A stretch of DNA of 64,000 bases, from contig JASANC010000960.1 of the NCBI GenBank assembly GCA_030248135.1, positions 62,001 through 126,000 on the forward strand. Direction: 5' to 3'. Under the pieces are notes generated by a model. That model saw only the letters and a program-made list of their open reading frames with translations. It was not told the origin of the DNA and searched no databases. Positions 54,250 to 63,108 of this stretch are shown here, one piece after another. Numbering within the stretch: position 1 is the first letter of the stretch; every line of letters begins with the position of its first letter. This DNA comes from Theristus sp. LFF4_11. Lineage: Eukaryota > Nematoda > Chromadorea > Monhysterida > Xyalidae. Both the position numbers and the translations under genes were made by a program.

Positions 54250-54745
54250 TCATTCGACAATCATCCAGTTGTTTTCAGTGCCAAAATCGTTGTACTGACG
54301 ACCATAGTTGTTCGATGTTACCCAACGACCGTCAGCCATGAAACGGAACTCGTATCTGTTTGTGCAATGGATCGATGAAATCACGACCTCAACAAAAACA
54401 ACCATTCAAACAGCACTGTCAGCGTGGCAAATGGCAGGTCATATCGTTTCGCTGCATGCGTGTGAAACCTGCGTTCAGGCGAAACTGGAGCGTGCATTGC
54501 AATGGAATTTCAATTTCTGTAATGCACGCTTCGGTGACGCCGTGAACACGAACGAGACTGGTGCGACTGACCTGCCAGTGGGCAAGTCGATCCATACGCC
54601 GTATTTGCCGTGCGGATGCATGGTGCACAGCAGTGCACACTCCCAGTTGACGAACGAGCCGATCAAATAGACAGACTGTGCGTTGCCGACGTCGGCGTCC
54701 AATTCAAACCAGACACGCCGGTAATCGCTTGAATCTGCCTCGTTC
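54250..54745 (-). other. CBM48 (AMPK-beta type glycogen-binding) domain exons
   Basis: Exons 54745-54572 and 54355-54250. Conserved features against AMPK-beta: Trp in SFVNWE and in DGRW stack on sugar rings, the basic residue in EFRF, and Asn in GTENNW. The domain ends at the stop codon, with no ASC or kinase-interaction domain after it, unlike AMPK-beta. Confidence 0.85.
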
Positions 54746-60700: not shown

Positions 60701-63108
60701 CGCTGCACACGAGTGTGATGCAACAATGGCGTGTTGGTGGTGTTGTTCGCTTTCGACAACCTCCAACTGGTGACGCAGTCTAGTCTGCGCGTCGACCAGT
60801 GTGGAGATCCTGCTTTGCAATGCAGTACGCAGTTTATGGGTCTGATTGAGCTTTATGACTTTACACAGCGACATTGTGTATGCTGCTGCGGCCGAGCTCT
60901 GATCACCATCACCATCATCAACAACGAACTTTTGATGCAGCAAGCCGACTTCCTTTTCAGTGTGGTGTTTGCTCGCGTGTGCCTGTGCGATGGCGTGCTC
61001 AGCCTCCTGGTGTGCGACGGCCAGCTGCTTGCGTTGCGTGCTGATCGTGCCGCACAGATCGGCGATCCTACAGCACAGCCGTGCACGTGTGCACTTTGCT
61101 CACTGCTCACACTGGTCGCTTGAAAGTCGTCAACGACACGACAACAATGCACCTCAGCGGTGCGTTTTATCCGTACACCTGACAACAATCGCAACAAGCA
61201 GCACTTGCTTCTGATGGAGTGCACTGATCTCGTGTTCCTTGTCGTCCACGTGCGCCTGCGCTGCGGCCAACGCACGATCTGCCTCCTGCTGCGCCACGCC
61301 CAGCTGCGACCGCTGACTCGCCAGTGTGGCCGCGAGAGCCGAAATCCTGAAATGGCGCACCGTTGCAGGCTCCGTAAGCAACGACAAAAACGTCATACAC
61401 CCATTAAAACGGCACTTTTGGTGGAGTTGGCCGATTTCGATCTCCTTCTCGTGCATGTTCGTCTGCGCGTCTTGCATGGCAATCGCATTTTGGTCGGCCA
61501 AACGTTGCAACTCGGCCAGCCTGCAGCAGCGCAATCATGGGCGCCATTATTCAATTGGCACAAAATGGCGCTGAACAAAAGTGAGAGTGGCTGACTTGTT
61601 GTCGATGTCGCTGGCAGACGACGACGGTGGCGCCGCGTGCCACTGCGGCACGGCCACTTGCTGCACCACTCGCTCTGAGTCGGCATCGCCCGCTGACAAT
61701 CTGTGACGAGACGAACTCACTAATCTGCACTCGCTGCCATACTAACGCAATAGGATGAACAAGTGAACATTTGAAATCAATTACAGCCATCTAGTTTGGT
61801 GAGAAGATAGCGGTGCTGGAGGTTTCGTTTAGTGACGATTTCACAGGACAGAAAGCATACAGAATTTTAAAGGACACAATTGTAGAAGCATTGGTTTATT
61901 AGAGCAGAGCTGTACAGTGGCAAAGGGAATGGATCGTTCGCGATCCCACCAAAATGTACCGTTTTTCGAGCTCCGCAATGCGTTGTTGCGCTTCAGCAAG
62001 CTTTTGGTTTGTCGAAAACAGTCGCTGTTGGGTGTCGTCGATCTCTCGTTGTTTCGAGTGCAATTCGTGCCGTTGATTGGTCAGAGTGTTCGCCAGACCG
62101 TGGATGCTGCAACGTGCAAGCAAGCAACAATGGGGAAATGGAATGCTAAGCATGCAGCTGTGTGCAGTGACAGCCTCACCTATTATATGCAGTTAGCGGA
62201 TTGGTTGATGGTGACCACGTGATATATGCACTCTATGCAAATGTGACTCCGCCTCCACAGCAATGTCGACACAGAATGCATACATCACATGGTCACATAT
62301 GATATAGAAACAGATTGTGCCTCTCTGAGCCAGTCAGGCTGGCAGCGAAAACTATTGAACTTTTTGGCCATACTTTTCATGTGCGAACGTACAACATGCC
62401 TCAGCAGAAACGTGGACAATTAAAACATTGTGAACCGCCAACAAAGCGATGCGCAAAAGATTGTGAATCGAATCCAAGACACAAATAACGTTGCACAGCA
62501 ATAATCAAAATTCAAAAATCAAAGTTGCCGAATCGAACACAAGCCGAATGAGCCAGACACCAACCGATTGTGCAACTGGCCAATTTCTGATTCGCTTTCT
62601 TGTCGCTGACGTTGAGTGACGGCTGACACCCGTGCCGTCACGTTCTGCAGCGCGTCGATCCTGAACAACGAAAAGCTCAACTGAAGTGTTCTTTTGTAAG
62701 GTTTTGTAACAGTCTGCAAATTGTCGCCCATCTCACTTTCGTTCCAATTCTCTGATACGATGGTCCTTCTCGGATAACGTGTCTTCGAGTTCGGCTACCC
62801 TAAAAAACAAAAATAAACTAAAGATTTGCAAGAACTGACAGACTTATTTCGTATGTGCTATTAAGCTGTTTGCTTATGACAAGTTTCATTCTCATTCATT
62901 TCAATTGCTCTGTCAGTCAAGCATAGCCAACAACAATCGAGTCTGGCGACCGTTCATATTCCGATGGCACATCAAAGCTGTCCGTTTGCACAACCCCGTC
63001 CACGTGGTCACCAATGTGAACGCCCGCTTTGATCTGTCGCTCGCCATTGTTGCGTCCAAAAAACCACCACAGAAAATCACTGACAGCTCGCCCGAGTCGC
63101 ACTAGCAT
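54250..63108 (-). CDS. Long coiled-coil protein with C-terminal CBM48 glycogen-binding domain; tandemly duplicated exons
   Basis: Thirty exons modelled, 1215 aa, frames closing at every junction. Starts in order: 63108, 62799, 62660, 62106, 61700, 61520, 61346, 61067, 60809, 60410, 60166, 59943, 59724, 59526, 59344, 59067, 58664, 58377, 58108, 57886, 57533, 57263, 57071, 56834, 56618, 56469, 56163, 55590, 54745, 54355. N-terminus MLVRLGRAVSDFLWWFFGR is hydrophobic. Residues about 55-1100 are almost all coiled coil, much of it repeats of a module LRHQLexAhxET...AEQEAKLxxKExEIAELQxK. The C-terminal 90 residues form a CBM48 E-set domain: VYLIGSFVNWE, IDLPTGRYEFRFMADGRW, GTENNWMIVE, keeping both Trp and the Asn of the AMPK-beta glycogen site. 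One intron (after 61209) needs a GC donor. No standard animal family recognised. Inference: a scaffold tethering something to glycogen. An ATG further upstream in the same frame is possible. Confidence 0.85.
58515..61346 (-). repeat. Tandem exon-duplication array within the CBM48 coiled-coil gene
   Basis: Six exons of exactly 150 nt (60809-60660, 60410-60261, 60166-60017, 59344-59195, 59067-58918, 58664-58515) and two of 138 nt (61346-61209, 61067-60930) each begin I/V-(S/A/V)-x-(L/M/F) and end EIAELQxK or a variant. All enter and leave in phase 2. Shorter exons between them (114, 108 and 75 nt) are diverged or truncated members. Confidence 0.85.
62178..62311. repeat. Palindromic MITE, family P (coiled-coil gene intron)
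   Basis: GCAGTTAGCGGATTGGTTGATGG then TGACCACGTGATATATGC, mirrored by GAATGCATACATCACATGGTCAC. Located between exons ending 62565 and starting 62106. Confidence 0.6.

Follow-up and report, generated by a model that had tools for sequence, protein, structure and literature searches.

What does a nematode do with a protein that is a long coiled coil almost throughout and ends in a module of the kind that binds glycogen? The question is raised by a gene on the minus strand of a 64,000-nucleotide stretch of the genome of Theristus sp. LFF4_11 (contig JASANC010000960.1, here C618, positions 62,001 to 126,000; hereafter the window), where a hand-refined chain of exons running from window position 63108 to its stop codon (Table 1) encodes 1204 amino acids (aa) with phase-consistent splice sites. 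An earlier note, made from the letters of the window, had described the locus as a 1215-aa coiled-coil protein with a C-terminal carbohydrate-binding module (CBM) of the CBM48 type. Its length is close to that of our chain, the difference presumably reflecting splice choices, but the whole gene starts upstream and encodes about 1310 aa, with an N-terminal domain of the TDP-43 type that had gone unseen because it lies outside the window. Both domains stand on one phase-consistent gene model and, in four relatives, on one polypeptide, and both folds are predicted in the structural model of one relative. This anatomy is well supported, and from it we infer a function: a nematode glycogen scaffold, in which the CBM48 would bind glycogen, the coil would act as spacer and dimerise, and the TDP-43-type domain would link molecules head to tail, a proposal to which we give an even chance.

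One gene with a domain at either end

The gene covers C618:116250-129390 on the minus strand (54250-67390 on the window scale), reaching about 3.4 kb past the right end of the window, and comprises 34 candidate exons encoding 1340 aa, or 33 exons and 1313 aa once candidate exon 32 is dropped from the model. A start at 63108 was rejected because exons with the N-terminal domain of TDP-43 (Pfam TDP-43_N, PF18694) were found upstream on the same strand, outside the window. A profile search of the species' own genome gave seven matches at E ≤10: one at C618:127688-127822 (minus strand, 34.2 bits, over the cut-off) lies just beyond the right end of the window, and another, at C618:126962-127018 (minus strand, 14.6 bits, E 4.4), stays under the cut-off by itself, while on the spliced 1340-aa model the domain reaches 45.5 bits (E 7e-12, residues 26-93, cut-off 27.1). 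Four upstream exons with matching phases were added, namely the MDESGIADVHGPE exon, two exons carrying TDP-43_N and one containing YEKATSSFRQSIQDVARLM, and relatives have counterparts of MDESG and of the fourth of these exons. The start codon was picked by resemblance to the Plectus protein, and an in-frame start farther upstream is possible.

At the other end, the C-terminal CBM48 reported by the earlier note is confirmed by the Pfam profile AMPK1_CBM (PF16561), which scores 49 bits (E 7.3e-13) on the 1204-aa chain and 51 bits (E 1.7e-13) after removal of exon 32, the cut-off being 26.8 in both cases, and gives E 5.4e-12 on the 1340-aa model. The best matches of the C-terminus among solved structures are the CBMs of AMPK beta (best E 3.3e-07).

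Is this pairing of domains particular to one assembly, or does it belong to a family? Two protein searches supplied the 15 relatives used here (P0001-P0015): the first yielded three, and the second 17 rows, made up of the query, 13 relatives at E ≤1.4e-32 and three chance-level rows, which were dropped. A species is given for 13 of them, in each case a nematode (Globodera, Heterodera, Ditylenchus, Meloidogyne, Plectus, Setaria and Pristionchus). The apparent novelty that the note had claimed stands as far as the literature goes, since no published description of the family was found in a search that covered few subscription papers, but the databases do hold these relatives, under automatic names, in several nematode genera. 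AMPK1_CBM was found in 12 of the 12 relatives scanned by Pfam (P0001-P0005, P0007, P0008 and P0011-P0015; under the cut-off in P0003), and four of these have TDP-43_N on the same polypeptide (E 1.7e-19 in P0001, 3.4e-17 in P0008, 2.9e-13 in P0012 and 6.2e-14 in P0014). With the window gene included, the carriers are thus five: besides it, P0001, a protein of Plectus and two of Pristionchus. The C-terminal part of the window protein is 38 and 36% identical to two Globodera proteins (Globodera and Heterodera relatives share 73% with each other), and a further protein search, with the Plectus C-terminus as query, recovered nothing but that query from 67 candidates. In a 15-row tree the window protein has P0001 and Plectus as its nearest companions (94/94), and Setaria joins them next (99/98), a grouping that is tentative because the branch of the window protein is long.

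Two separate genes, or a faulty assembly join, might nonetheless bring TDP-43_N and the CBM48 together by accident. We consider this very unlikely, given that both domains share one protein in four relatives, that the 1465-aa frame of one of these, P0001, comes from a 5004-base contig (which suggests a transcript), and that splice phases agree along the full exon chain. An observation that would fit such an accident comes from a second contig, C2010, whose first 10,000 bases were compared: it matches window scale 59432-67040 at 98.8% identity and stops there, the compared part being without the CBM48 half. In the 18 exons that this contig shares, the coding sequence differs at 9 of 2039 bases (five synonymous, four changed codons) and one in-frame 3-base insertion keeps the frame, and in the noncoding part 57 of 5920 bases are substituted and six deleted. 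Domain E-values, conservation in the family and this second copy together make a chance reading frame unlikely. The alignment with C2010 (L037:1-2377) ends at a TTAA inside an intron, as could happen if a mobile element that targets TTAA had inserted there or if the assembly were at fault.

Exon choices, conserved residues and rod

The introns of the 34-exon model end in AG in all 33 cases and start with GT in 32 and GC in one; the sites were picked by hand, and the evidence for them lies in phase agreement and the family alignment, not in these dinucleotides. Two exons deserve separate mention. Candidate exon 32 was rejected as a regular exon, its 27 residues being absent in 13 of the 13 relatives that cover the place, and on this comparison it is probably spurious; when it is skipped, the frame is kept and the junction (LLSMW-NEADSSDYRRVWFE / LLSMW-NEADSSDYRRVWFELD) takes the pattern of the family (MW-NE..DYRRVWFE), seen likewise in P0001 (LAMWNE...YVRVWFELD), Plectus and Setaria. 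Candidate exon 5, which encodes the hydrophobic SDFLWWFF, could be skipped without a change of frame. That stretch had led the earlier note to propose a membrane anchor at the N-terminus, in the manner of STBD1. The stretch, however, would be internal if it is coding at all, it sits in a doubtful exon, and the N-terminus of the model consists of MDESG followed by TDP-43_N, so that a membrane-anchored tether is hardly credible here.

The glucan-contact residues listed in the earlier note (W of NWE, W of DGRW and N of TENNW) are all present in the window protein. At the places that correspond to AMPK-beta W100 and N150, the family alignment has the same residue in all 15 rows, and at that of W133 in 14 (F in P0009). 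Conservation extends towards the rod: the linker before the CBM48, in exon 31, keeps a motif D and W in every one of the 15 rows (P0003 was left out of the linker and CBM48 counts), two or more copies of the strict WRxGEL pattern are present in 15 of the 16 rows, P0001 having the form WRCGELE, and exons 24-30 contain NDANWRVGELRA, AQWRVGELEAE, QRKYEIE and KELWIANERK, all of them forms of motifs common to the relatives. Since the WRxGEL repeats and the linker D and W are conserved, homology reaches past the CBM48.

As for the rod, its description as almost entirely coiled coil proved roughly right. A 3.5-residue periodicity with z ≥2 was obtained in 12 of 22 overlapping segments taken along the whole 1313-aa model, and among the segments that lie wholly inside the rod z falls below 2 in 449-532, 505-588, 729-812, 785-868, 841-924 and 1009-1092; for parts of the rod, the helical repeat can thus be called coiled coil with less confidence. 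Exons 13, 14, 15, 19, 20 and 21 are each exactly 150 nt long, with repeat units up to 65% identical.

A candidate glycogen scaffold

What could such a protein do? Three functional parts would be combined in a cytosolic protein of some 1310 aa. Its C-terminal CBM48 would bind glycogen or another alpha-glucan; the long helical rod, in large part coiled coil and apparently lengthened through duplication of 150-nt exons, would dimerise and hold its ends at a distance of tens of nanometres; and the N-terminal TDP-43-type domain would join molecules head to tail, giving oligomers. The outcome would be a multivalent scaffold for tethering or clustering glycogen particles, with partner enzymes probably bound along the rod. 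A clustering scaffold is the best single reading, in our opinion, because it accommodates glycogen binding, oligomerisation and a long spacer at once.

The oligomerisation step leans on TDP-43, whose N-terminal domains chain head to tail through an interface that an excerpt of PMC5491494 gives as E14, E17, E21 and Q34 on the tail side and N45, S48, R52, R55 and N76 on the head side. In P0001 the tail side is conserved at all four positions, and on the head side R52 is retained and R55 replaced by K. Judged from the aligned residues, polymerisation would have fair grounds in part of the family and weak ones in the window species. An AlphaFold2 model of the Plectus relative consists of helices together with a predicted CBM48 fold and a predicted TDP-43 N-terminal fold, and a Foldseek search with it did match a TDP-43 chain, ranked under coiled-coil and CBM rows and outside the best 50.

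Several observations weigh against the scaffold. At the position of AMPK-beta K126 a K is found in 0 of 15 rows (R in 11, C in three, V in one; R in the window protein), L146 is replaced by F in 12 of the 15 and by H in the other three, and T148 is matched by T in only 11. The polymerisation interface is part-kept in the window protein, which retains E14 and R52 and changes E17 to Q, E21 to N, Q34 to A, N45 to D, S48 to R and R55 to Q, in an alignment whose E is just 0.014, and even P0001 differs at N45, S48 and N76. TDP-43_N went undetected in eight of the 12 scanned relatives, and the precomputed domain annotations of the remaining three relatives do not list it, some of these models being short or partial. 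Parts of the rod show a weak heptad repeat, and the placement of the parts in the AlphaFold2 model is meaningless, because its mean predicted local distance difference test score is 66 and its predicted template modelling score 0.28.

Would these observations be better explained by another kind of protein? In one alternative the product is a structural or cytoskeletal coiled-coil protein whose CBM48 has turned into a protein-binding module and lost glucan binding; the replacement of K126 throughout the family would suit it, as would a rod that makes up most of the protein and gives sub-cut-off Pfam matches to filament and ciliary proteins. We nevertheless hold it rather unlikely, as the Trp and Asn contact positions are near-invariant although much of the CBM48 varies. 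Somewhat doubtful as well, if a little easier to entertain, is an adaptor comparable to plant PTST, in which the rod would bind a glycogen-metabolising enzyme, the CBM48 would deliver it, and the TDP-43-type domain would be dispensable or a weak dimeriser. Such an adaptor would share the layout of PTST1 (PMC6322578), its WRxGEL repeats are conserved as a binding surface might be, and the many relatives with no detectable N-terminal domain would be expected; the rod, on the other side, is very long for that role, and TDP-43_N has been retained in all the carriers named above.

Returning to the scaffold, could it have a more specific task? PMC8116748 describes as unsolved the way in which glycogen beta particles assemble into alpha particles, and mentions the suggestion of a protein glue. 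That the family provides this glue, with head-to-tail chains whose CBM48 tips join beta particles into alpha assemblies, is a long shot; even so, a nematode protein that pairs a polymerising-type domain with a glycogen-binding module gives the idea a concrete and testable candidate.

Other loci and known systems

Further CBM48 profile matches lie at C7:9358-9498, C2332:19024-19161 and C2651:48484-48624, and a separate CBM48 gene at L026:7055-8343 (C2526, minus strand) scores E 1.8e-07 with AMPK1_CBM. The loci on C7, C2651 and C2526 were considered as copies of the gene and discarded, as their surrounding blocks show other contexts, and C2332 gave no tblastn match to five relatives. The matches on C7 and C2651 share GHHE(F/Y)KFW(I/V)DR and look like another subfamily, and the block upstream of the C2526 gene reads MGADCSS, which resembles an N-myristoylation start. 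Another gene with TDP-43_N exons, at L041:3402-5193 (C115, plus strand), continues with blocks rich in glycine and arginine and with one that, by eye, resembles a zinc finger of the U1 type. A search of the genome for the exact SL1 spliced leader gave no match. The features of the window are collected in Table 1.

Table 1. Exons of the gene that lie in the window, and other features of the window (window coordinates)
Feature	Position	Strand	Remarks
Last exon (34)	54250..54355	-	CBM48, second half, containing DGRW and TENNW; ends in stop codon 54250-54252
Exon 33	54572..54745	-	First half of CBM48 (VYLIGSFVNWE)
Candidate exon 32	55510..55590	-	Probably unused; 27 residues
Exon 31	56053..56163	-	Conserved linker preceding CBM48 (MIRKEPFVDRHKW)
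Exons 24-30 with introns	56335..57886	-	Rod, C-terminal part
Exons 11-22 with introns	58282..61346	-	Rod, largely repeated exons
Exons 6-10 with introns	61416..62794	-	Start of rod; 5' splice site of exon 6 at 62794 or 62799, uncertain
Candidate exon 5	63012..63101	-	Hydrophobic SDFLWWFF; 90 nt, phase 1 at both ends, weak splice sites
Glycine cleavage system P-protein fragment	192-716	-	PF02347, E 1.3e-30
Hedgehog-type Hint module	7491-8255	+	PF01079, E 9.7e-31; cysteine-rich reading frames upstream
F-box	25555-26055	-	Pfam scan
RCC1 repeats	29367-29906	-	Pfam scan
Retrotransposon gag-like frame	41175-42038	+	By eye; no Pfam match at E 0.001

How does the window protein stand beside the systems it recalls? 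Its CBM48 belongs to the same sequence family and fold (PF16561) as that of AMPK beta, but it is placed C-terminally on a long rod and followed directly by the stop codon; no AMPKBI domain accompanies it, the AMPK-beta gene of this genome lying elsewhere and the genome profile search having placed AMPKBI on C2554 and C3124 only, in agreement with the earlier note, which had seen no other AMPK-beta domain. In animals, STBD1 and laforin bind glycogen and position it within the cell; they use a CBM20, and STBD1 is membrane-anchored; the window protein is predicted to be of glycogen-binding type too, but its module is AMPK1_CBM, and no CBM20 appears in the Pfam tables.

With TDP-43 the window gene shares the Pfam domain TDP-43_N, and the Plectus relative the predicted fold, but in the window protein the domain is followed by the rod and the CBM48, and no RRM was found among the nine Pfam families at E ≤0.01 on the 1340-aa model. 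The N-terminal domain of TDP-43 is thereby placed in a protein in which the Pfam scan found no RNA-binding domain. The likelier TDP-43 of this species is a gene on C2257, with TDP-43_N and blocks that look RRM-like by eye (an RRM pattern search gave no match there).

The comparison with plant PTST, proposed by the earlier note, holds for the layout: an excerpt of PMC6322578 describes PTST1 as a coiled coil followed by a C-terminal AMPK1_CBM, as in the window protein, but with a plastid transit peptide at the N-terminus, where the animal protein has TDP-43_N. The likeness is one of layout, and the same excerpt gives Arabidopsis PTST as 26 kDa, the window protein being much longer. The combination of a coil with a CBM48 is, in short, known from plant PTST, and what the family of the window gene adds to it is an N-terminus of the TDP-43 type.
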